Shown here piece by piece: positions 12,069 through 22,732 of a DNA stretch of 64,000 bases (the stretch's first letter is position 1; every line of letters starts with the position of its first letter). The DNA lies in contig NZ_SMGG01000004.1 in NCBI RefSeq assembly GCF_004339245.1, forward strand, positions 62,001 through 126,000. The letters run 5' to 3'. A program made the position numbers and the translations under genes. This stretch comes from Seleniivibrio woodruffii (GTDB lineage Bacteria > Chrysiogenota > Deferribacteres > Deferribacterales > Geovibrionaceae). The notes under the pieces are model-generated. The model did not search any database. It saw only the letters and a program-made list of their open reading frames with translations, and was not told where the DNA came from.

Positions 12069-12803
12069 TTATTTATGCGAACATACGGGACACTGCGGAT
12101 TACGGTTCAGCTTCGGCATCACCGTACGCATTTTCATGAAATCGATGAACATCATACGGCCGTTCAACGGTTCGCCGTGGCCTGTTATTATTTTGATTAT
12201 CTCAACCGCCGCCAGACATCCTATGGTTCCGGAAACTGCGCCGAGCACTCCGAAGCCCAGCTCTTTCCAGTCCTTGTCGTCGGCGGGCATGTTGCAGGCG
12301 AGGCATGGGGTCTCATGGGGCATGACAGTGAAAAGGTATCCGTTCATGTCGTCCATTGCCGCCTCAATCATGGGTATACCTTTGTCAACACAGGCTTTGT
12401 TCAGCGAGAGACGTTCGGGGAAGTTGGGGCGGGCGGACATTGCTATGTCGCAGTGCTTTATCAGCTCAGGAGTGTTTTCGTCGTTCAGGCGGACGTTGTG
12501 CATCTCCAGTTTCAGATCGGGGTTTATCTTCATCAGGTTTTCATAGGCGATGTCGACCCTTGGCTCGCCCACACGGTTTATGTCCATGAGCAGCTGACGG
12601 TTCATGTTGGTTTCGGTGAGGTTTCCGTAGTGTGAGATTACCAGCCGGCCTATGCCAGCAGAGGCGAGATACGCCGCCGTTGCGCCGCCAAGCCCGCCGA
12701 TTCCGCCCACGAAAACTGAGGCGTTTTTCAGCTTCTCCTGCTTCTCCGGCGTGAAATCCTTCATCATCATCTGGCGTCTGTAGCGTTCGTTGTAGTCGTG
12801 CAT
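12069..12803 (-). CDS. E1-like adenylating enzyme, ThiF/MoeB/HesA family
   Basis: This 244-residue protein adenylates the C-terminus of a small sulfur carrier of the ThiS/MoaD type. 'RYRRQMMMKDFTPEKQEKL' and the ATP-binding 'VFVGGIGGLGGATAAYLASAGIG' are typical of the family, as is the arginine in 'NMNRQLL'. Two zinc-binding pairs, CLAC near residue 165 and CPVC at the C-terminus, are intact. There is no rhodanese domain. The start at 12803 has GGAGG 6 bp upstream; a frame extension to 12839 is not needed. No carrier-protein gene is beside it, so whether it serves thiamine or molybdenum cofactor synthesis cannot be decided. Confidence 0.87.
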   Translation of the reverse strand: MHDYNERYRRQMMMKDFTPEKQEKLKNASVFVGGIGGLGGATAAYLASAGIGRLVISHYGNLTETNMNRQLLMDINRVGEPRVDIAYENLMKINPDLKLEMHNVRLNDENTPELIKHCDIAMSARPNFPERLSLNKACVDKGIPMIEAAMDDMNGYLFTVMPHETPCLACNMPADDKDWKELGFGVLGAVSGTIGCLAAVEIIKIITGHGEPLNGRMMFIDFMKMRTVMPKLNRNPQCPVCSHK

Positions 12804-12913
12804 GTCATCTCCTCCCGATTGGGCTAAGTGTATTATCATGCAGTCTTTATGGCAAGCGGGAATAACGGGGGAGGATTGTATTTTGCTATCACTCCGGCAT
12901 GGTGAATGGTTTT

Positions 12914-13001
12914 GGCTTACTCTGCCTGAGCGGCAGTGAACTTTGAAAGCGGTCTGGTGATTTCATGAAGTTTTTTCTAAGCTGCCTATACGGCAGTGAA
13001 C
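12914..13001 (-). CRISPR. One-spacer CRISPR array downstream of cas6f
   Basis: Two 28-bp type I-F repeats flank one 32-bp spacer (12942-12973). Read on the minus strand, the first repeat (13001 to 12974) differs from the main-array repeat in one loop base (GTATA instead of GCATA) and keeps the 8-nt handle CTTAGAAA. The second (12941 to 12914) keeps GTTCA, the CTGCC/GGCAG stem and a GCTCA loop but its 3' handle is eroded to AGTAAGCC. This is what is needed to make one crRNA: the first repeat supplies the 5' handle and the second only the Cas6f cut site. It has its own promoter-like sequence (13014-13022) and lies beyond the cas operon terminator. Confidence 0.9.
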
Positions 13002-13013
13002 TGGAACCATTTT

Positions 13014-13022
13014 ATTATAACA
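13014..13022 (-). promoter_or_regulatory. Extended -10 promoter of the one-spacer array
   Basis: On the minus strand the sequence TGTTATAAT is a perfect extended -10 element. Its last base is 12 bp before the first repeat, so the transcript would start about 5 nt before the repeat. No good -35 is seen, which extended -10 promoters do not require. Confidence 0.6.
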
Positions 13023-13056
13023 TATTCTCAACGAAGAAAAAGCTACGACATTACAT

Positions 13057-13107
13057 ATAAAAACCCTTTTGTACAGCCGTTTTAAAAACTACTGATACAA
13101 AAGGGTT
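13057..13107 (-). terminator. Terminator at the end of the cas8f-cas6f operon
   Basis: A perfect 12-bp stem (AACCCTTTTGTA at 13062-13073 and TACAAAAGGGTT at 13096-13107) with a 22-base loop ends, on the minus strand, in TTTTTATAT. It lies 22 bp after the cas6f stop. The plus side also has a T-run, so it may work both ways. Confidence 0.75.
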
Positions 13108-13129
13108 ATTTTTTGAGGACTAAAAAAGG

Positions 13130-13681
13130 TCAGAATTTGGGTACTGTGGCCTTTGTGCTGAGTCCGTATGTGCTGAACTCTCCGGCTGTGCCTGCTGTCT
13201 GCTCGGATTGCCTTATGAATAGCCTGAATTTCTGTCCCGTGCTTCTGCTGTTCAGTATGATAAACGGAAGATCCAGAAATTTAGCCTTGCTGTCCGGTAT
13301 TTTTTCTTTTGCCTGTTCTTCTGTCAGCCCAAGACATTTCATGCTTCTTCTGCGCAGCCTTTCCGGGCTGCTTTTTGCCTGAACTCTGCTGACAAGCAGA
13401 TATCCTGTTTTTTCAGGGATTTTTTTAATTCTGCCCACCAAGGCGTAATCCTGCATCACTTTAACAAATCTGTGTTCAAGAACATCCTGAAGTGGGTCAA
13501 GTTCCCCGTGGAGCCTGAGTACTGTGCCGAGGTTTTTGTCGGCTTCGGGAAAACTTATCCCGACATCGTTTCTTTTTTGTTCGGCCAGAACCAGATGTAG
13601 CTTTTCATACAGCATATTCAGAACCACTTGCGGCGCAATCTCCGGATTCGGCTGAATTTTTATATCAGTATAATACTGCAT
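13130..13681 (-). CDS. cas6f: Cas6f (Csy4) crRNA endoribonuclease
   Basis: The 183-residue protein cuts the CRISPR transcript at the base of each repeat hairpin and stays bound to the 3' end of the crRNA. 'MQYYTDIKIQPNPEI' is the usual Csy4 start, and the histidine of 'YEKLHLVLAEQ' near residue 29 fits the catalytic histidine. An arginine-rich helix, 'SPERLRRRSMK' near residue 110, would lie in the major groove of the hairpin. The C-terminus 'STYGLSTKATVPKF' resembles the family ending YGLS..TVP.F. The start codon follows cas7f by 3 bp, with AAGGA inside the end of cas7f. It is the last gene before the terminator. Confidence 0.95.
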   Translation of the reverse strand: MQYYTDIKIQPNPEIAPQVVLNMLYEKLHLVLAEQKRNDVGISFPEADKNLGTVLRLHGELDPLQDVLEHRFVKVMQDYALVGRIKKIPEKTGYLLVSRVQAKSSPERLRRRSMKCLGLTEEQAKEKIPDSKAKFLDLPFIILNSRSTGQKFRLFIRQSEQTAGTAGEFSTYGLSTKATVPKF

Positions 13682-13684
13682 GGC

Positions 13685-14707
13685 TTAATCCTTTTCGGCT
13701 TCGCCGAATACACCGCCACGGACAAAGATAGCCATTACAAAGTGCTGGTTTTCCGCTGAAGGTTTTTTATCTTTCAGCATCCAGTTGTCCAGAAGGTTAT
13801 AAAAATCTGTTTTGTCTTTCGGCTGGCGATATGCGCACCCCAGTGATGTCACAGAGCCATAGGGCTCAACGGCGATGGGCATTTCCGCCAGATCGTCGTA
13901 CCATGTATCTATAGTGCGGATGGCGTTTCCGACTTTTTGGGAATGCAGCCCTGCTGCACCGCTGACTTCATAAAGCGTTCTGCTTTTTTTACCTTTCCCG
14001 CTGCCTCCGTCCAGAATGAGTTCCTGAGAGGGGAATACCTCCTGACCTTTGCCGAGCCTTGCGAAGGCTGTCACATCGAAGATTACGAATGAACTGCCTG
14101 CCAGACCATCAGCGATTGCATCTCCCAGTTCTGATACTTTTTTGTCGGTTTTGCTGAAATCGCTCAAAGGATACTCGAACCCGTCAAATGTCCAGCTTTT
14201 TTCAGTTTTCCCTGCTGATACCCTGTTTACAACAACTTCGACCTGTTCTGCTCCGACCCTGTTTCTCCAGAGGAAGCGGCCGTTTGCGATGTTGTATGCA
14301 TATCTGTCAGCAAGGATTTTGAATCCGAACTCTGCCTTATATGCTTCAACAGTGGCTTTCAGTTTCTCCTGATATTCCGCAAGGTTACAGGCGGAGGGCG
14401 TGCCTATGCCGCTGAGGACTTTCAGAGAAAATCTTACGCAAAGTGTGTCCGCATCCGAGGGGAGGGCGGCCACATCAACTGTCTGGAGGTTTGCCGACTC
14501 AATTTTTGCATTGAATTTTGCAGGATCATCCTCTTTAGCTTTCATTCTGTTTGAGATTGTTCCTCTGACTGACTTTTGTTTCAGCTCGATCTGAGGCCAT
14601 GTGCCGTAATTTGCTTTGTCGTCCCATTTTCCGCCGTAAAAAAGGGCGTCCGATACATCGATTTTGCGTTCGAAAGCGAGCACTGATGCGTTTTTAGATA
14701 AAGCCAT
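13685..14707 (-). CDS. cas7f: Cas7f (Csy3), Cascade backbone subunit
   Basis: Several copies of this 340-residue protein coat the crRNA guide in type I-F Cascade. The N-terminus 'ASVLAFERKIDVSDALFYGG' and the segment 'YAYNIANGRFLWRNRVGA' are hallmarks of Csy3. 'HFVMAIFVRGGVFGEAEKD' near the end also fits. The length matches the family. AAGGAG lies 7 bp before the ATG. It sits between cas5f and cas6f in the standard I-F order. Nothing points to a truncated or transposon-associated variant. Confidence 0.96.
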   Translation of the reverse strand: MALSKNASVLAFERKIDVSDALFYGGKWDDKANYGTWPQIELKQKSVRGTISNRMKAKEDDPAKFNAKIESANLQTVDVAALPSDADTLCVRFSLKVLSGIGTPSACNLAEYQEKLKATVEAYKAEFGFKILADRYAYNIANGRFLWRNRVGAEQVEVVVNRVSAGKTEKSWTFDGFEYPLSDFSKTDKKVSELGDAIADGLAGSSFVIFDVTAFARLGKGQEVFPSQELILDGGSGKGKKSRTLYEVSGAAGLHSQKVGNAIRTIDTWYDDLAEMPIAVEPYGSVTSLGCAYRQPKDKTDFYNLLDNWMLKDKKPSAENQHFVMAIFVRGGVFGEAEKD

Positions 14708-14718
14708 TGTATTTCTCC

Positions 14719-15609
14719 TTATTCGTAGATTTTTTTATGTTTGCAAGCGTATATGCCGTTTTTGGCATCTGAGGTGTAAAACCAGAGCAGTTCGTCCAGT
14801 CCTTTCAGTTTGGATGGGCTTTTCCATTGGCCCAGGGTGTAAATCGCCTCGGCAAACCGGAACGGAGTCTCTTTGTCCCTTGTGTTTGCAACCTCGCCGG
14901 GCTGATAGAGCGGTGAGATTCCTGCATAGCCCACAGGGATGGGCACAAGCCATCCGGAACCCTCACGGTATGTCTGCCATTCGCCCTTGCTGCCTTCGGT
15001 TTCGATGTAGCCATGTTTCATGGCGGACAGGTCGAAGAGGGCATCCAGAAGAGTTTTTTCTTCCGGCATGTTCTTGTGGTGTTCCATCAGCAGGTCGCTT
15101 CTGTCGGTCAGGGTGAAGCCGGGCAGAAGCTTTCTTGCCAGTTTTTTATAGGTTTTTCCGTCCTGTTCGGCGAATTTGTCCAGAGATATGACTTTTGCTC
15201 CGGAAACAGGCAGGATTGATCCTCCGGCAAGACGAAGAGTTTCGGCCAGAGTCGCTGTTTCGTCTGCGTCAGGTTTCCCGCCGTAAACGCCTATTATAAG
15301 GCTGACGGTGACGTGTGCTCTTCCTTCTTCAATGATTCCTGCGGTGCTTCCGTCACTCTCCAGAGGGTTTCTGGTCTGGCTGAACTTTTTTTCATAGCCC
15401 GACTGGTAGGCCTGCGGTTCGAACGAGTGGCTTATTATACCCACTCCGTCCAGAACGGTCTGATCGCCCAGCTTTCTGCTGAGTGCGTGAACGAACCCGC
15501 AGAATGCTGTTACGGATGGAAATCCCCATGTGAGGGGGCCCGAAACACAGTTAACGTTTATTACCCGCATACGGGGCAGAACGAGGAGATGGTCAGGTAT
15601 TTTATGCAT
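14719..15609 (-). CDS. cas5f: Cas5f (Csy2), Cascade 5'-handle subunit
   Basis: The 296-residue product binds the 5' handle of the crRNA together with Cas8f. 'LVLPRMRVINVNCVSGPLTWGFPSVTAFCGFVHAL' (residues about 8-42) is the recognisable Csy2 start, and 'WLVPIPVGYAGISPLY' near residue 225 is also typical. Its start overlaps the end of cas8f by 8 bp, with GAGGAG upstream, so translation is probably coupled. Eleven bases separate it from cas7f. Confidence 0.95.
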   Translation of the reverse strand: MHKIPDHLLVLPRMRVINVNCVSGPLTWGFPSVTAFCGFVHALSRKLGDQTVLDGVGIISHSFEPQAYQSGYEKKFSQTRNPLESDGSTAGIIEEGRAHVTVSLIIGVYGGKPDADETATLAETLRLAGGSILPVSGAKVISLDKFAEQDGKTYKKLARKLLPGFTLTDRSDLLMEHHKNMPEEKTLLDALFDLSAMKHGYIETEGSKGEWQTYREGSGWLVPIPVGYAGISPLYQPGEVANTRDKETPFRFAEAIYTLGQWKSPSKLKGLDELLWFYTSDAKNGIYACKHKKIYE

Positions 15610-16924
15610 AGCTGTGCTCCTCGATAAGCTCTTTCAGAACTTCTTCCGCTATATTTTTCCACTCCCTGAACTCGTTTTCTCCGACTTCCTTTTTTCCTTT
15701 GTGTATTTTGTATATTTCTTTGTTCAGCCACTTTGCAAAACTCTTTGCGACTTCCCTGCACCAGTATCCGTCCTTGTATAGCTGAAATCTTTCCGTGTCC
15801 TCTTCCGACGGGGGATCCAGCCACAGTTTTTCTGCGGAGTTCAGACGACATTTAGGGTCTTTGCTCCAGCCGGACTCAAACAGGGATGCCATTTCATAAA
15901 ATATAGTGATCAGCTCGTCTGCGATATTGCGGATAAGCTCCTCTCTTTCAAGTCTGATGTCGATGTTGTTATTTTCATGCCAAAGCAATCGGTTCAGCTG
16001 TGAAAGTGACTCTTTCACGTAGGTTCTTTGCCTGAACTGATAGGTGAATGCGGATGCGTTGTGAATCGGCGCAGCCTTTTTGCTGTCCCATTTTGGAGGC
16101 AGGGATGGCAGCAGAACGTTCGAACCGCCACGGACACTGTTCAACTGGCTGACGTTCTGCGGTTTGGTTCCGCCATATGCCACAACGGATGTGTGCGGAA
16201 ATTCTATATAACCGCTTTCGTGAGGCAGTCCTTTTTTTCTGGCCTCTTTTGCGGCTTTCGTTTCCTCAGAATAGCGGGCTGTTCTTACCTGCTCATGAAC
16301 ATAGTGAAACATAGAAGAGGGGAAAACAGGGCTTAACAGGTGATATGTGCCGTCCTCAAGTGGGAAGAACACCTGTTTCATAAGCGTGTGAGATGATGGG
16401 GAACTTATCTCTTTAACGGTCAGAAAACCGTCGATCCACTCGTTTGCCTCTTCTTTATTGTCTGACAGTGCGGCGATAATTTCAGGCGTTCGCTCTTCCA
16501 TGTGCAGCAGAATGGTTTTGCCTTCGTATTCCTGCCGGAGGAAGGAGAAGACATCCAGGGCGGCGGCATTGCCTGATACGTCCGGCTGAATATCCCGCAG
16601 AGTGTGTGTGCCGATGTAGGCTGTATCCGGTTTATCGGAATAATAGACCGGAGATGCTTTCGCTGATGAATGTGTGAATTTCGGGATGTGGGTGGCAACT
16701 TTTATCTGCGAGGCACGCTTTGCCGCAGAAGCCAGCCATTTTTCCCTGCTGTATTCATCCTTGAGTTTCTCGGCCTTTTCCTCCAGTTTTTGCAGGGCTT
16801 CTGGAGTGCTTTCCTTTTTCATCTGTTTTTCTATCTCTTCCAGCTTGGGTTTCAGTCGTTCACCGATGAACCATTCGATGAACTCCCGAAGTGTTCGTAT
16901 AACTTCATCTTCTTTTTGGGGCAT
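15602..16924 (-). CDS. cas8f: Cas8f (Csy1), Cascade large subunit
   Basis: This 440-residue subunit recognises the PAM and contacts the crRNA 5' end. It has a charged N-terminal helical part ('EEIEKQMKKESTPEALQKLEEKAEKLKDEYSREKWL') and family segments such as 'VYYSDKPDTAYIGTHTL', 'SSHTLMKQVFFPLEDGTYHLLSPVFPS' and 'PQNVSQLNSVRGGSNVLLPSLPP'. I use the ATG at 16924, which has GGAGG 8 bp upstream; the ATG at 16939 overlaps that site. It is the first gene of the effector operon, and the gap upstream (16925-17088) holds its promoter and the crRNA-like element described separately. Confidence 0.94.
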   Translation of the reverse strand: MPQKEDEVIRTLREFIEWFIGERLKPKLEEIEKQMKKESTPEALQKLEEKAEKLKDEYSREKWLASAAKRASQIKVATHIPKFTHSSAKASPVYYSDKPDTAYIGTHTLRDIQPDVSGNAAALDVFSFLRQEYEGKTILLHMEERTPEIIAALSDNKEEANEWIDGFLTVKEISSPSSHTLMKQVFFPLEDGTYHLLSPVFPSSMFHYVHEQVRTARYSEETKAAKEARKKGLPHESGYIEFPHTSVVAYGGTKPQNVSQLNSVRGGSNVLLPSLPPKWDSKKAAPIHNASAFTYQFRQRTYVKESLSQLNRLLWHENNNIDIRLEREELIRNIADELITIFYEMASLFESGWSKDPKCRLNSAEKLWLDPPSEEDTERFQLYKDGYWCREVAKSFAKWLNKEIYKIHKGKKEVGENEFREWKNIAEEVLKELIEEHSYA

Positions 16925-16976
16925 GCGTTGTACCTCCATTATGGACTATTACTGATTTTTACATATTATATTCTTA

Positions 16977-17029: not shown

Positions 17030-17092
17030 ACAGACAGTTTAGAAGAGCATATTATATGATATGGATAAACTGCCGCACAGGCAGCCGCTTAT
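17018..17092 (+). ncRNA. crRNA-like RNA (CreR/CreA-type pseudo-repeat, pseudo-spacer, pseudo-repeat)
   Basis: Two degenerate type I-F repeats face the opposite way to the cas genes. The first (17018-17045) has stem CTGTC, loop GAACA and stem GACAG, then TTTAGAAG; compared with CTGCC, GCATA, GGCAG and CTTAGAAA of the real repeat, 17 of the last 23 bases agree, and the C to T and G to A changes in the stem are compensatory. The second (17065-17092) keeps CTGCC, loop GCACA and GGCAG, with an eroded handle, and runs into the cas2-3 stop codon. Between them is a 19-nt pseudo-spacer (17046-17064). Its first 17 nt match 16998-17014 at 15 positions, next to CC at 16996. By analogy with CreR/CreA RNAs it would make a short guide that places Cascade on this promoter without cleavage. 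Confidence 0.65.
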
Positions 17093-20000
17093 TTCAGTTT
17101 GCTGTATATCCCCAGATGCGGGCTGAACAACATGTCTGTATCTCCGGCGGTGAATCGACCGAACCTGAGAGAGCTTTCCGCCATACCCATTTCAAACTGT
17201 TCTGAAAGCTCTTCCAGAAGATCCTTGTAGTTCAGCGGAATGAAAAAGCTTTTGCCTGTTTCAAATTTATCCTGCTCAATGTTCATAGATTCGGCAACCT
17301 TTCCCGTCTTTGCGTCAATGGTGTGGAAATCTGCCCATTCATCGTTTTCATCCCAGAGATACACAAACTCCTGCTCATGGGAACTCTTGCGGAAAGGAAA
17401 TTCTTTTTGCAGATACCCGCTCAGATAATATTCGGTCTTCCAAAACTGATTTATGCCGATAACCTTTCTCTGATCTTCCAGAGCCATCACCGCTTTAAGG
17501 CGTGCATGTTCCAGATGGCACAGGTTTTCTCCCATGTGCATGGGTGAAGGCTCGATTATTCTGGGGATGGAGTTTATTGTTTCATATTGAACAGCGTCCA
17601 GAATTTTACTCAGCTCATGCTCTTTCAGCTCAAATTTGTCTGCCTCAAACCCCGGCATGGTATATGCGATGCTGTTTTTTTCATATGCCCTTATGTTCTT
17701 GTTCAGAATGAGCATATTCACTTTATCCCATGCTCCGTCCCTGTGCCTGCGGATACGTCCCGCAAGCTGTATCAGGGATTTCATGGATGATGGCTCGGCT
17801 ATCGCCCAGTCGTAGTCGTGGTCTCTGCCGACCTCCGCAACGGGTGAGGCGAACACAATGAAAATATGATCTTTTATGTCCGGTCTGCCCGCAATGGCTA
17901 TGCGGATGCAGTCGTGGTCATATATTTCTTTGCTGCCGTTCCTTTTCAGAACAGCATCCAGATGTTTTTCGATCTCCGAGCGCATCAGCATGGGAAATCT
18001 TGAGTGGTAGCAGCAGATTTTAAAATCGCCTCCGAGTGCGCTGAACTCTTTTACCAGTGCCACAAGATGCTTAATATTTGCAATGCGCACCAGCCCGATG
18101 CTGATGCGGTTGCCGTTTGCGTCTGTTGTGTGGTTGTCTTTGTGCAGTTCTAAGGCTTTTTCTGAAATTGTTTCCGCAAGGGCTTTATGTGAGAAGCTGT
18201 CGAGGTTCAGTAGTCGGCAGTTGCGCCTTATTTCGGCTTTTTGCAGTCTTTCCGCCCGTTTTTCGGCAAATTCTCTGTGCTTTTCTGCGAAGTTAAGCTG
18301 ATTTATGTCCGTTTCGGCAGTGGAACCGTATTCATCAAACCACCCGCATACGATTCCGTGGCTGTGCTGAACGTTTCTGTTTTTGTTGTAGAGCTGTCTG
18401 CCCGCCCTGTATGCATGGAAAAGCCCCTCGGCAATGGACGGGGTCACAGTGGCTGAGGAGAGAAGCACCCGACAGCCAAGCAGTCCGGCAAACCAGACCA
18501 GTCTGGAGAATGCATAGAGGTCGGAGATATCATAATCGTCAGGCTCATCAAGGATAAGGTCTCCGGTCATAAGCCTGAGCATGGGCGCAAGCTGTCTGCC
18601 GCCTGCCGTACCTTCTGATGCGGGGATTATGTGATCCACCGTGCAGACTGTAACAGGTGCCGATACCAGTTTGTCCGCACCCCGTGTTTTCCGGAGCCAT
18701 TCTCCTATAGGGGTTTCGTTCAGCCCGCCGTCATAATTTACGAATGAACAGGACGGCAGAAGCTCGTCTTCGGAAGCCGAAGGCGCATTTTCATTGCGCA
18801 GTGCGAAAAGCTCCTTTGTTGCCGCTCCGCCTGCCAGAACAGCCATCTCGTCCGATGAGAGGCCGAGCAGTCTGCGGTATTCCTCTCCGGTTTGCAGTGT
18901 CAGCGAGCGCAACCCAAGAGCGGCTGTGAACCTGCATCCTTTTTTCCTGTCCGAAAGTGCGTACATTATCCGTGCGTTTGCGATGGTCTTGCCGCATCCG
19001 GTGGAGGCCATGTTTATGCCGAAAAAGCCGCCCAGTTCCGCCGTGTGTCTCACTGCGTATGCAGTATCGAATGCTTTGTCCTGCCAGCTGTATTTCCGGA
19101 TTCTGTTCCTGCGGGTCAGTATATCGTTCCGGCTTATGTAGGGAAGCATACTGTCCGCTCTGGGCAGGGTGAAGAGTATCTGGCGGCATTGTTTTTCAAC
19201 TCCCAGCAGGTGTTCCTCCAGCGTCTGTTTCAGGTCGTTATTGCTGTCTGTGTTGGCATACAGCTCATCCTTACTTCCGGTCTTTGCCGCAGGCATGGAT
19301 GAGTAGATGTGGTCTGACAGCATAAGCACCATTCTGGCATTAAAGAGTATGAAAGGGTCGAAAATATCATGGGAGGGGAGTTTCAAAGCCCTTTGGGCTA
19401 TCTTTGCCGCCGCTTTCCGCCATTGAGCGGATGATGTGATGCATTTATCAAACTTCCAGTATCCGTCCGTTTTACCTTCCATCTCTGTGTGGCTTCTGCA
19501 CCATTTCGCCACGATGTTTTTCAGCACCTCCGGACTTGCTTCTTCCGGAATAGGCATCCTGTGGTGCGAAACTATCAGCCAGCATACTGCCAAAGCCAGA
19601 GGCGGAAGTTTTTCGAACGGCTTTTCGTTCGGATTGATAAGTTTTTGCCAGCTTTCGTCAAAGTCACCCTCAGCCAGTTTTGTTAACCATGTCCGGTCGT
19701 CATCACCGCCTATGAACGCCATGAACATAACGACCGATATCCATTCGTGGCGGATTATATTTCTTTCAGCTTTTCTGCTTATGAGTTTTGTCTGAAAGTC
19801 TGCGCAGCTCTTGCCGAAATCATGGAAAAGAGCGGCAAGGCAGGAGAGGACGCTGATAGTTTCCAGTGAGTTCCAGTTGTTTTCATCGGATGATTTCAGA
19901 ATATCCCGCAGGGTTGTGTTTGTGGGTACAGAGCCGTTTTCGCTGAACCTGCTGCTGTCTCCAACTATCCATAGAAGTTCCGAGCGGTTTTTGCCCCGTA

Positions 20001-20190
20001 TCCAGTGGCAGGCCACCGCCGTGTTTCTTCGTGCGGTCTTTTTCAGCAGTTTGCGAAGCATATCCAGCCCGTCTTTTGTGATCGGGGTGCTCCATGTCCG
20101 CTCTCCGGTGCGCTCGGCAAACTGGTCGATTATGCGGCGGGTTTCGGTCATGGCATTCTTTGAGCATTGGGATATCAGCAGAATATTCAT
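17089..20190 (-). CDS. cas3: Cas2-Cas3 fusion (type I-F Cas3 nuclease-helicase)
   Basis: The 1033-residue fusion is diagnostic of type I-F. Residues 1 to about 90 form a Cas2 domain ('MNILLISQCSKNAMTETRR'). An HD nuclease domain follows, with 'LAALFHDFGKSCADFQ' and later 'RHEWISVVMFMAF' and 'VSHHRMP' as metal ligands. The helicase part has Walker A 'NMASTGCGKTIANAR', the DEXD-type box 'LILDEPDDYD', 'LLSSATVTPS' (motif III) and 'QLAGRIRRHRDG' (motif VI). It degrades DNA recruited by Cascade and works with Cas1 in adaptation. Its start overlaps the cas1 stop (ATGA). All catalytic motifs look intact. The 3' end overlaps the antisense crRNA-like element by a few bases. Confidence 0.97.
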   Translation of the reverse strand: MNILLISQCSKNAMTETRRIIDQFAERTGERTWSTPITKDGLDMLRKLLKKTARRNTAVACHWIRGKNRSELLWIVGDSSRFSENGSVPTNTTLRDILKSSDENNWNSLETISVLSCLAALFHDFGKSCADFQTKLISRKAERNIIRHEWISVVMFMAFIGGDDDRTWLTKLAEGDFDESWQKLINPNEKPFEKLPPLALAVCWLIVSHHRMPIPEEASPEVLKNIVAKWCRSHTEMEGKTDGYWKFDKCITSSAQWRKAAAKIAQRALKLPSHDIFDPFILFNARMVLMLSDHIYSSMPAAKTGSKDELYANTDSNNDLKQTLEEHLLGVEKQCRQILFTLPRADSMLPYISRNDILTRRNRIRKYSWQDKAFDTAYAVRHTAELGGFFGINMASTGCGKTIANARIMYALSDRKKGCRFTAALGLRSLTLQTGEEYRRLLGLSSDEMAVLAGGAATKELFALRNENAPSASEDELLPSCSFVNYDGGLNETPIGEWLRKTRGADKLVSAPVTVCTVDHIIPASEGTAGGRQLAPMLRLMTGDLILDEPDDYDISDLYAFSRLVWFAGLLGCRVLLSSATVTPSIAEGLFHAYRAGRQLYNKNRNVQHSHGIVCGWFDEYGSTAETDINQLNFAEKHREFAEKRAERLQKAEIRRNCRLLNLDSFSHKALAETISEKALELHKDNHTTDANGNRISIGLVRIANIKHLVALVKEFSALGGDFKICCYHSRFPMLMRSEIEKHLDAVLKRNGSKEIYDHDCIRIAIAGRPDIKDHIFIVFASPVAEVGRDHDYDWAIAEPSSMKSLIQLAGRIRRHRDGAWDKVNMLILNKNIRAYEKNSIAYTMPGFEADKFELKEHELSKILDAVQYETINSIPRIIEPSPMHMGENLCHLEHARLKAVMALEDQRKVIGINQFWKTEYYLSGYLQKEFPFRKSSHEQEFVYLWDENDEWADFHTIDAKTGKVAESMNIEQDKFETGKSFFIPLNYKDLLEELSEQFEMGMAESSLRFGRFTAGDTDMLFSPHLGIYSKLK

Positions 20191-21164
20191 GCTTCCGCCC
20201 TTGACGCTTCAATTGAGGCCAGTTTAACCGTGTCTATCATTGTGTCCAGAGCCTCCGCCTGAACAAGAGCGTCTATACAGCTCTGGCGGAACTGCTGTTC
20301 CGTGTCGCCCCGCATGGCGGAGATGAATGCGTTCGGCATTATCAGGGCATCTTTAACGATGTCGGCAATATCGAAAACCAGTCCGCCCCGTCTGGTTTTG
20401 CCGTGGAGAACTGAAAATCCGTGGGGCAGTCCCAGAACCCATGCGGCTGTGGCGGCAAGTCCATAGGCAAGATAGTTGCCGTGATCCAGAAATCTGTTGG
20501 CACTGTCGCCGCCTTCGCCCCGTTTCGCTCGTTCAAAACTGCCGTATTCAACAGCTTTTGCGGTCAGCCTATACAGGTTTTTTGTGAGCCGAGCCTCTTC
20601 CAGTAAAAGATTCTCTGTGTCAGCGCAAACGTCTATGTTCTTTTCAAATATATCTAACACCTGCTCCAGCTGTCTGTCGTTGTGGTCAAAACAGTTTTCA
20701 GGGTCTTTTGCCAGCTTGCTCCAGTGTTTTCTTATCATCGCCGTGCGTGCGGTCTGAAAAATATTGGCCGCCTTAAGCCTTCTTGCGGGGTCATACCAGA
20801 AGCCTGCCCACTGTTGAAGGTATTGGGTAGGGCGATATTCGGACTGGGGACAGAACCAGACGATGTCAGTGTCCTGCTCCATTGCGCTGAAAAGCGGGAC
20901 TCCGCCGCCGCCGCAAAAACCGATTAGCACTCCGGCTTTCGCAAGGTCACGCACTGCGGCCTGAGTTATTGATGTTCCGTTGCCGAGGAGGATTACGGTT
21001 GTGTTCGCAATCGGTATGTTGTAGTAGTTGATTTTTCTTCCGGCTTCCGCCGCAAATTCCACTCTGCCGCCGTTGACCAGAATCCGGCAGTATTCCAGAT
21101 AATACATGTTTGCACGCTTTGAGTGCATTATGGTTTTCATCTCTGACGGCTTGAAGTAGTCCAT
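20187..21164 (-). CDS. cas1: Cas1 spacer-integration endonuclease, type I-F
   Basis: The 325-residue protein is the integrase of CRISPR adaptation. 'YLEYCRILVNGGRVEFA' and 'NIPIANTTVILLGNGTSITQAAVRDLAKAGVLIGFCGGGG' form the N-terminal beta domain of Cas1f. The catalytic C-terminal domain includes the glutamate in 'KAVEYGSFERAKRG' region, the histidine in 'LPHGFSVLHGKTRRGGLVFDIADIVKD' and the aspartates after it. GAGGAGGAG lies 5 bp before the ATG. It is the first gene of the adaptation pair with cas2-3 and lies downstream of the main array on the same strand. With an intact Cas2-3 partner, active spacer acquisition is plausible. Confidence 0.95.
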   Translation of the reverse strand: MDYFKPSEMKTIMHSKRANMYYLEYCRILVNGGRVEFAAEAGRKINYYNIPIANTTVILLGNGTSITQAAVRDLAKAGVLIGFCGGGGVPLFSAMEQDTDIVWFCPQSEYRPTQYLQQWAGFWYDPARRLKAANIFQTARTAMIRKHWSKLAKDPENCFDHNDRQLEQVLDIFEKNIDVCADTENLLLEEARLTKNLYRLTAKAVEYGSFERAKRGEGGDSANRFLDHGNYLAYGLAATAAWVLGLPHGFSVLHGKTRRGGLVFDIADIVKDALIMPNAFISAMRGDTEQQFRQSCIDALVQAEALDTMIDTVKLASIEASRAEA

Positions 21165-21308
21165 ATCTCCTCCTCAGAAACCTTACCATGTTTTCATATG
21201 GATTACTGATCTTTATATCGTGCATAAGCGTCAGTTGCTGTCGTCTGTGAAATATTTTTTTAGGTGAAAGATGATTTAAAAATGGGGAGCAGATATGGAA
21301 AGTGATTT

Positions 21309-21384
21309 TGATGAGACTCTGTGCTCTATTTGGCAATTAGCTTAAGGTGGACTCATACAGCCTTCAGCTAGTTTTCAGAGTGAC
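21309..21384. repeat. Dispersed repeat between cas1 and the CRISPR array end
   Basis: The stretch 21324-21372 (CTCTATTTGGCAATTAGC..., GTGGACTCATACAGCCTTC, AGCTAGT) is an inverted copy of 49107-49154, with most positions identical, including a 19-base run GTGGACTCATACAGCCTTC. It begins with GATGAGACT, shared with the modules at 2556 and 44398. It sits directly at the leader-distal end of the CRISPR array. Confidence 0.7.
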
Positions 21385-22732
21385 GGTTTGCGTTGCCTAT
21401 GCGGCAGTGAACCGGCTGGGAATACAAAGGCGAAAAGACATGGCTTTCTAAGCTGCCTATGCGGCAGTGAACTTATTAAAAGACTAAACGAAAACGGCGA
21501 AATCTTTCTAAGCTGCCTATGCGGCAGTGAACCAGGCATCCCTCTCATTAACCGCAAACAGGCATTTCTAAGCTGCCTATGCGGCAGTGAACACTATGGC
21601 CAAGGGAATAACAGCCCCTGCGAATTTCTAAGCTGCCTATGCGGCAGTGAACACAAAGCCCGCAGTAGAGATATTCGCACTTGGTTTCTAAGCTGCCTAT
21701 GCGGCAGTGAACCGGTTGCTTGATGAAGTGGGCGGCGGCTATGATTTCTAAGCTGCCTATGCGGCAGTGAACAAACTCAGTAGGCATGGGCGATATCTGG
21801 GTGATTTCTAAGCTGCCTATGCGGCAGTGAACATCGTCATGCCATATCCGAGGGAATCCAAAGCTTTCTAAGCTGCCTATGCGGCAGTGAACGTTAAGCG
21901 ACTGATGAATGGCAGGGAGGTTGCTTTCTAAGCTGCCTATGCGGCAGTGAACAGAGTTTGACGAATGGTATCAGACAACAGTCATTTCTAAGCTGCCTAT
22001 GCGGCAGTGAACGATAAAGGTTTTGCTCATGGATTTCTCAATGATTTCTAAGCTGCCTATGCGGCAGTGAACTCAAGCCCCCTCGCTTCCACCACATAAA
22101 TCAATTTCTAAGCTGCCTATGCGGCAGTGAACTTAAAACTATTTTTACGGTGCTGATGCTGATATTTCTAAGCTGCCTATGCGGCAGTGAACTCTCGGCT
22201 ATACAGTACGGGGCTTCAGTATTCTTTCTAAGCTGCCTATGCGGCAGTGAACCTGAAGAAACAGCAGTCTCAACTGCCGTTTCTTTTCTAAGCTGCCTAT
22301 GCGGCAGTGAACTATAATGAACTTGCATTTGAGGTAGAAACTGATTTCTAAGCTGCCTATGCGGCAGTGAACTATAATGAACTTGCATTTGAGGTAGAAA
22401 CTGATTTCTAAGCTGCCTATGCGGCAGTGAACTATCCAGACCATCGCCGATATATTCCAGCACATTTCTAAGCTGCCTATGCGGCAGTGAACGTTATGGT
22501 CTTCAAACTCAGTGCCGCACTTAGTTTCTAAGCTGCCTATGCGGCAGTGAACCTTTCGAGGTGCATTTTTTTGCGCGTCTCGTATTTCTAAGCTGCCTAT
22601 GCGGCAGTGAACTTGAACTTATCGTTTATGCGCTCCTGCAAAATTTTCTAAGCTGCCTATGCGGCAGTGAACATGGCCAGCACGTTCCTGCCGTCAACGC
22701 TCAATTTCTAAGCTGCCTATGCGGCAGTGAAC
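21385..22732 (-). CRISPR. Main type I-F CRISPR array, 23 repeats and 22 spacers
   Basis: Twenty-two identical 28-bp repeats occur every 60 bp from 21445 to 22732, plus one degenerate copy at 21385-21412, so every spacer is 32 bp. Read on the minus strand the repeat starts GTTCA, has a CTGCC/GGCAG hairpin with loop GCATA, and ends CTTAGAAA, the canonical type I-F form. The degenerate copy is therefore the leader-distal last repeat, and the leader lies above 22732. Two neighbouring spacers, 22313-22344 and 22373-22404, are identical. The array is transcribed in the same direction as the cas genes and probably has its own leader promoter. Confidence 0.99.

Follow-up and report, generated by a model that had tools for sequence, protein, structure and literature searches.

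A one-spacer array behind cas6f of Seleniivibrio woodruffii as a probable contracted second array of a type I-F1 locus

Is a lone CRISPR spacer behind a cas operon the remainder of an ordinary array, or a guide dedicated to regulation? The question is raised by a stretch of 64,000 nucleotides of the Seleniivibrio woodruffii genome (the window, to which coordinates refer unless a locus or contig handle precedes them), where a mini array lies on the minus strand 3' of cas6f. The first-pass annotation had left both options standing; synteny, leader homology and leader geometry speak for the reduced second array, and no seed site lends support to the regulatory guide. The anatomy, synteny and leader homology of the mini-array locus and the integrity of its cas genes are direct observations. 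From these sequence comparisons, the mini array is likely to be a defence array of the ordinary kind, the second array on the cas6f side of a complete I-F1 locus, with only its last unit remaining.

The mini array within a complete I-F1 locus

The mini array comprises one spacer between two repeats (12914-13001, minus strand), in agreement with its first description as a 32-nt spacer flanked by a good repeat and a repeat reduced to its hairpin. The leader-proximal repeat, GTTCACTGCCGTATAGGCAGCTTAGAAA (12974-13001, 28 nt), matches the I-F pattern with 0 mismatches; a pattern scan of the window yielded 23 such exact matches, against 0.00 expected from 100 shuffles. It is followed by the spacer (12942-12973), of which no other copy turned up in its own genome or in a search of 50 genomes of the phylum, and by the terminal repeat, GTTCACTGCCGCTCAGGCAGAGTAAGCC (12914-12941), in which inspection of the sequence shows the CTGCC/GGCAG stem intact and the final 8 nt, the handle portion, gone. 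The features of an I-F1 array are thus present: a 28-nt repeat with the CTGCC/GGCAG stem and the CTTAGAAA handle (stem only in the terminal repeat), a spacer of about 32 nt, and a leader with conserved blocks adjoining the first repeat, with one additional base pair of spacing (+1) and a displaced -10. As had been noted, the repeat loop is GTATA rather than the GCATA of the main array; it is the only GTATA loop among the 54 repeats that one pattern found in the genome. The predicted transcript of the mini array folds no better than shuffled sequences (z -0.96), and no trace of lost units was seen in the trailer. By eye, a 7-nt inverted repeat, AATGGTT/AACCATT, flanks the mini array on both sides, which we judge to be likely due to chance.

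The handle-less last repeat had been regarded as a special property of this array. It does exist, but it is standard in the family: the terminal repeat is altered within its final 8 nt in 11 of 13 other family arrays with a visible end (the main, C4 and C3 arrays of G000, both sides of G010, G006, G004 and G005, and the cas1 side of G008 and G002), so that a last repeat with hairpin kept and handle lost is the rule. The two unaltered terminal repeats belong to the cas6f side of G004 and the cas1 side of G002; the count was made outside the third array of G004 and the array of G047.

The six cas genes of the I-F1 locus are intact, form the full set of cas1, cas2-3 and csy1-4, and all score above the NCBIfam cut-offs. 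On the minus strand they comprise cas6f (csy4; 13130-13681; TIGR02563, 168.5 bits against a cut-off of 36.25), csy3 (cas7f; 13685-14707; TIGR02566), csy2 (cas5f; 14719-15609; TIGR02565), csy1 (cas8f; 15602-16939; TIGR02564), cas2-3 encoding Cas3f (17089-20190; TIGR02562, 1039.9 bits) and cas1f (20187-21164; TIGR03637, 475 bits). The main array, located by the repeat pattern at 21385-22732 on the same strand, has 23 repeats and 22 spacers. Besides the mini array, the repeat pattern identifies three I-F arrays with 9 to 22 spacers each in the 2.9-Mb genome (11 contigs): the main array and two arrays with GCACA loops, of 10 repeats (approximately C4:131.9-132.5 kb) and 23 repeats (approximately C3:1247.7-1249.0 kb). 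The mini array itself is bordered by cas6f on one side and, on the other, by genes of housekeeping type (moeB-like, pyruvate kinase).

Place and leader of the array

A DNA search across 99 genomes, the own genome included, gave matches at E <= 0.1 in 34, mostly single and weak. Many matches were obtained in seven other genomes (G002, G004, G005, G006, G008, G010 and G047), and the other five family members gave no match or one weak one. The cas6f-side locus was examined in the six family members among the seven, and G047 was used for its array alone. In all six, an array directly follows cas6f, with 15 repeats up to a contig end in G002, 10 in G004, 40 in G005, 51 in G006, at least 87 in G008 and 8 in G010. 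G002 and G004 belong to the same genus and carry many-spacer arrays at the place of the mini array, without its spacer. Because this position is occupied by long arrays in close relatives, the mini array reads as a shrunken ordinary array and not as a special regulatory guide. Two further features of these relatives were observed: two arrays of G005 (L034, 12584 and 1531) are identical in their terminal repeat and have about 23 nt of trailer sequence in common, as if one were a copy of the other, and G010 has tandem cas6f matches (L029 1579-2682) with 63% and 33% identity to the cas6f of the window, perhaps a doubled cas6f.

The comparison was extended to GTDB genomes, using the best 80 of 113 cas6f loci; three of these 80 are relatives already counted. 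Among these best 80, at least three repeats stand behind cas6f in 61 loci, and in 59 of the 61, across phyla, the first repeat begins 127-132 bp from the cas6f stop (108 and 150 bp in the other two); the cas6f stop therefore abuts the leader. At 128 bp, the mini array falls within this band. Array size was tallied for the 68 of the best 80 loci whose sequence continues for at least 700 bp past cas6f. By a strict count, 53 have at least ten repeats, three have five to eight, four have two, two have one (L103, with two by a looser count, and L109, with 81) and six have none (L078, L106, L108, L111, L135 and L138). The looser count gives two repeats in five such loci (L090, L103, L110, L114 and L142). 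In L110, from a Desulfovibrio MAG, the two-repeat unit (920-1030) stands 46 bp behind cas6f and its spacer has only about 21 nt.

The mini-array leader (13002-13129, minus strand) spans the 128 bp from the cas6f stop to the first repeat and contains an inverted repeat and an IHF-like TATCAG site. The inverted repeat, AACCCTTTTGTA..TACAAAAGGGTTTTT, is the element formerly called a strong terminator separating the array from the cas genes. It has a long loop, it is common to arrays that do not adjoin cas6f, and a simple scan of 12700-13300 detected no terminator-like site. The hairpin was accordingly dropped as a cas terminator in the main reading, as the same blocks stand in leaders far from cas6f, although it may additionally serve in that role. 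The perfect extended -10, TGTTATAAT, is indeed present 12 bp before the repeat on the correct strand (13014-13022, minus strand); TGNTATAAT occurs at 8 sites in the window against 1.56 expected. The array would thus have a promoter of its own, as proposed, but as a standard leader part of this family and not as a distinguishing feature. Both the "terminator" and the "own promoter" belong to the leader, since such parts recur in family leaders.

Spacing was compared with 16 other leaders from seven genomes, the own genome among them. In 12 of the 16 an extended -10 stands at a constant distance of 7 bp from the repeat; that of the mini leader lies 5 bp upstream of this usual place, which is occupied by TAAAAT without TG. 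Between the end of a GGGTTTT-type box and the repeat there are 57 bp in 15 of the 16 and 58 bp in the mini leader, so that the departures from an ordinary leader are the box at 58 bp and the displaced extended -10. The one other leader with 58-bp spacing, G006_up, precedes 69 repeats, which weakens the idea that the additional base pair abolishes spacer uptake. The IHF-like TATCA.. site, called by the IHF consensus, begins 95-96 bp upstream of the repeat in the mini leader, with one mismatch; 7 of the 16 others have it with at most one mismatch. The leader blocks ACCCTTTTT, CCCTTTT-TATCAG and AAAAGGGTTTTT recur, with some departures, on both sides of the cas genes and far from them. The mini leader agrees with the consensus at 36 of 42 positions, and other leaders range from 32/45 to 39/39. 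Its four closest leaders are all cas6f-side (G010 and G008, 63% identity; G006 and G004, 58%); identity to the other nine is 43-54%, including the cas6f-side leaders of G002 (48%) and G005 (43%). In published I-F work (PMC12259127), the I-F leader is described as folded by IHF and its conserved inverted repeats as bound by the integrase; the box pair of the mini leader would correspond to this integrase-bound motif.

Targets of the spacer and competing explanations

Type I-F systems use a CC PAM and a seed of positions 1-5, 7 and 8, every sixth base being flipped out. No copy or near copy of the mini spacer (at most three mismatches outside sixth positions) was found in its own genome or in the other 49 phylum genomes. 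The suggested BLAST check against genome, phages and plasmids gave no convincing match, and hence no full phage or plasmid match to mark an ordinary defence spacer: phages gave only weak matches (best E 0.9, 92% over 25 query positions), as did plasmids (best E 0.2, 92% over 25). Four patterns made from parts of the spacer gave 0, 0, 0 and 1 matches in IMG/VR, and the single match (L179) was rejected as a target, with 19/32 positions identical and no CC PAM. GTDB contigs, a set apparently without the own genome, gave 0 matches. Three of the 22 spacers of the main array, searched as patterns, likewise gave 0 matches in IMG/VR; the absence of an IMG/VR match for the mini spacer therefore says little. 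Because no protospacer was found in any set searched, the defence origin of the spacer stays putative.

For host targets, CC plus the 7 seed letters occurs at 10 sites in the genome, against 22 for a reversed control, with a longest run of 8 and a best total of 17/32. Of the 10 sites, 9 overlap an ORF of 100 aa or more, and the tenth, which is intergenic (L044), matches at 11/32. The proposed genome-wide search for CC plus seed near promoters thus disclosed no excess over chance. The earlier failure to find a good CC-flanked seed match in the cas promoters was reproduced: upstream of cas1 (21165-21384) the best CC-PAM seed run is 3, and no CC-PAM seed site of note was found in the regions before cas1, the main array or the moeB-like gene, or in the mini leader. 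Shuffled spacers equalled the mini spacer in 100, 184, 132 and 259 of 300 trials for cas1, the main leader, the moeB-like gene and its own leader, respectively; the lowest shuffle count, 28/300, belongs to a site in the mini leader without a CC PAM. The window contains five CC-seed runs of at least 5 for the mini spacer and 0 to 17 for each of the 22 main spacers.

These results bear on a dedicated guide of the CreR/CreA type, whose single crRNA would recognise a host promoter (of cas or of a toxin) through a short seed, bring the Csy complex there and so repress it. The one-spacer anatomy, the displaced -10, intact Cas6f and Csy, and the existence of conserved single guides behind cas6f in other I-F loci (though in genomes without Cas3f) would all suit such a guide. 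We nevertheless hold it to be very improbable, given the lack of a CC-PAM seed site of note before cas1, the main leader, the moeB-like gene or its own leader, the deficit of genomic sites relative to the reversed control and their overlap with ORFs, the ordinary-array distance of 128 bp against 97-124 bp in the Cas3f-less single guides, and the many-spacer arrays lacking this spacer at the same place in same-genus relatives. A frozen second array that has turned regulator, guiding an intact, Cas3-bearing Csy complex to a host promoter through a seed match indistinguishable from chance (such as L044), would be just as improbable. Somewhat less so, yet still unlikely, is a dead relic, untranscribed or unable to acquire spacers owing to a decayed leader. 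It would account for the TG lost from the canonical extended -10, for the +1 box-to-repeat spacing and for one spacer against 9 to 22 in the three other arrays; a perfect extended -10 is nonetheless present, the total leader length lies within the usual band, the 36/42 consensus positions kept are inside the range of other leaders, and G006_up combines the same +1 with a long array.

The preferred reading is a contracted second defence array, probably still transcribed. Its inner units may have been deleted by recombination between repeats, or the array may never have been extended; deletion between repeats would be the simplest route to one spacer. The leader promoter would yield a short precursor, Cas6f would cleave both hairpins, and one crRNA of the usual form, with the 8-nt CUUAGAAA handle, the 32-nt spacer and a 3' hairpin, would be loaded into the Csy complex and defend against some invader beside the crRNAs of the three longer arrays.

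Conserved single guides elsewhere and known systems

Of the five two-repeat loci, four show the gene order csy1-csy2-csy3-cas6f: L090 (Paraburkholderia elongata), L142 (Pararobbsia alpina) and the Nitrosospira loci L103 and L114. No match to cas2-3 was found before csy1 in the sequence examined; in the same four draft genomes, Cas3f was found in 0/4 and Cas1f above the cut-off in 0/4, with weak Cas1f matches in one. Their one-spacer arrays (L103 5561-5755, L114 5561-5750, L090 5561-5776 and L142 5561-5771; a further unit is L182 of G124) start 97-124 bp behind cas6f. Between the two Nitrosospira loci the repeat-spacer-repeat unit is conserved and the flanks have diverged: the spacers are identical at 25/32 positions, including 24 of the first 25, and the flanks are far less alike. 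A third related genome, G124, has the L114 spacer unchanged, with flanks close to those of L114. The Paraburkholderia and Pararobbsia spacers share their first nine letters and much of the rest, and here the flanks are also alike. The unit was present in 3/150 and 1/246 genomes searched; matches in G205 were discarded as repeats of an ordinary array. Outside the arrays, neither of the two genomes yielded a near copy of the Nitrosospira spacer, and the CC-plus-seed sites of the Paraburkholderia/Pararobbsia pair revealed no clear shared target except one orthologous site pair (L172, L165). Such Cas3f-less csy1-4 loci with a fixed guide could possibly represent repurposed Csy complexes kept to bind and not to cut, judging from sequence, and are the better place to seek them. 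By itself the mini array matters little; it shows that an ordinary array of minimum size can take the form of a single spacer, equipped with its own promoter, behind a cas operon, and two yardsticks, the distance from the cas6f stop and the box-to-repeat spacing, help to distinguish a defence array that has shrunk from a genuine single-guide regulator.

Among known systems, I-F3 CAST loci lack cas1 and cas2-3, have a fused cas8-cas5 and carry tns genes; the present locus has cas1f, Cas3f and separate csy1 and csy2. With the crRNA-like regulators CreR and CreA, as presented in the review PMC12737573, the mini array shares a single guide near cas genes and differs in that no promoter target was found. 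Where CreR has PAM and seed matches in the cas promoter that it regulates, the best CC-PAM seed run upstream of cas1 is 3 here; as for the neighbouring toxin promoter of CreA, no seed site was found near the mini array, and no obvious toxin gene was noticed between cas6f and the mini array. The spacer is not known to be conserved between related strains; other species of the genus lack it. The phage-encoded RNA anti-CRISPRs (Racr; PMC10651486) are likewise solitary repeat-like units, but the mini array is part of a host I-F locus, with cas6f and genes of housekeeping type as its neighbours. From the cas6f-side array of type I-F1 it differs in its one spacer, its GTATA loop (GCATA or GCACA in the other arrays of the genome) and a -10 displaced by 5 bp, and it shares with that array its place, strand, leader blocks, distance from cas6f, repeat, 32-nt spacer and degenerate terminal repeat.
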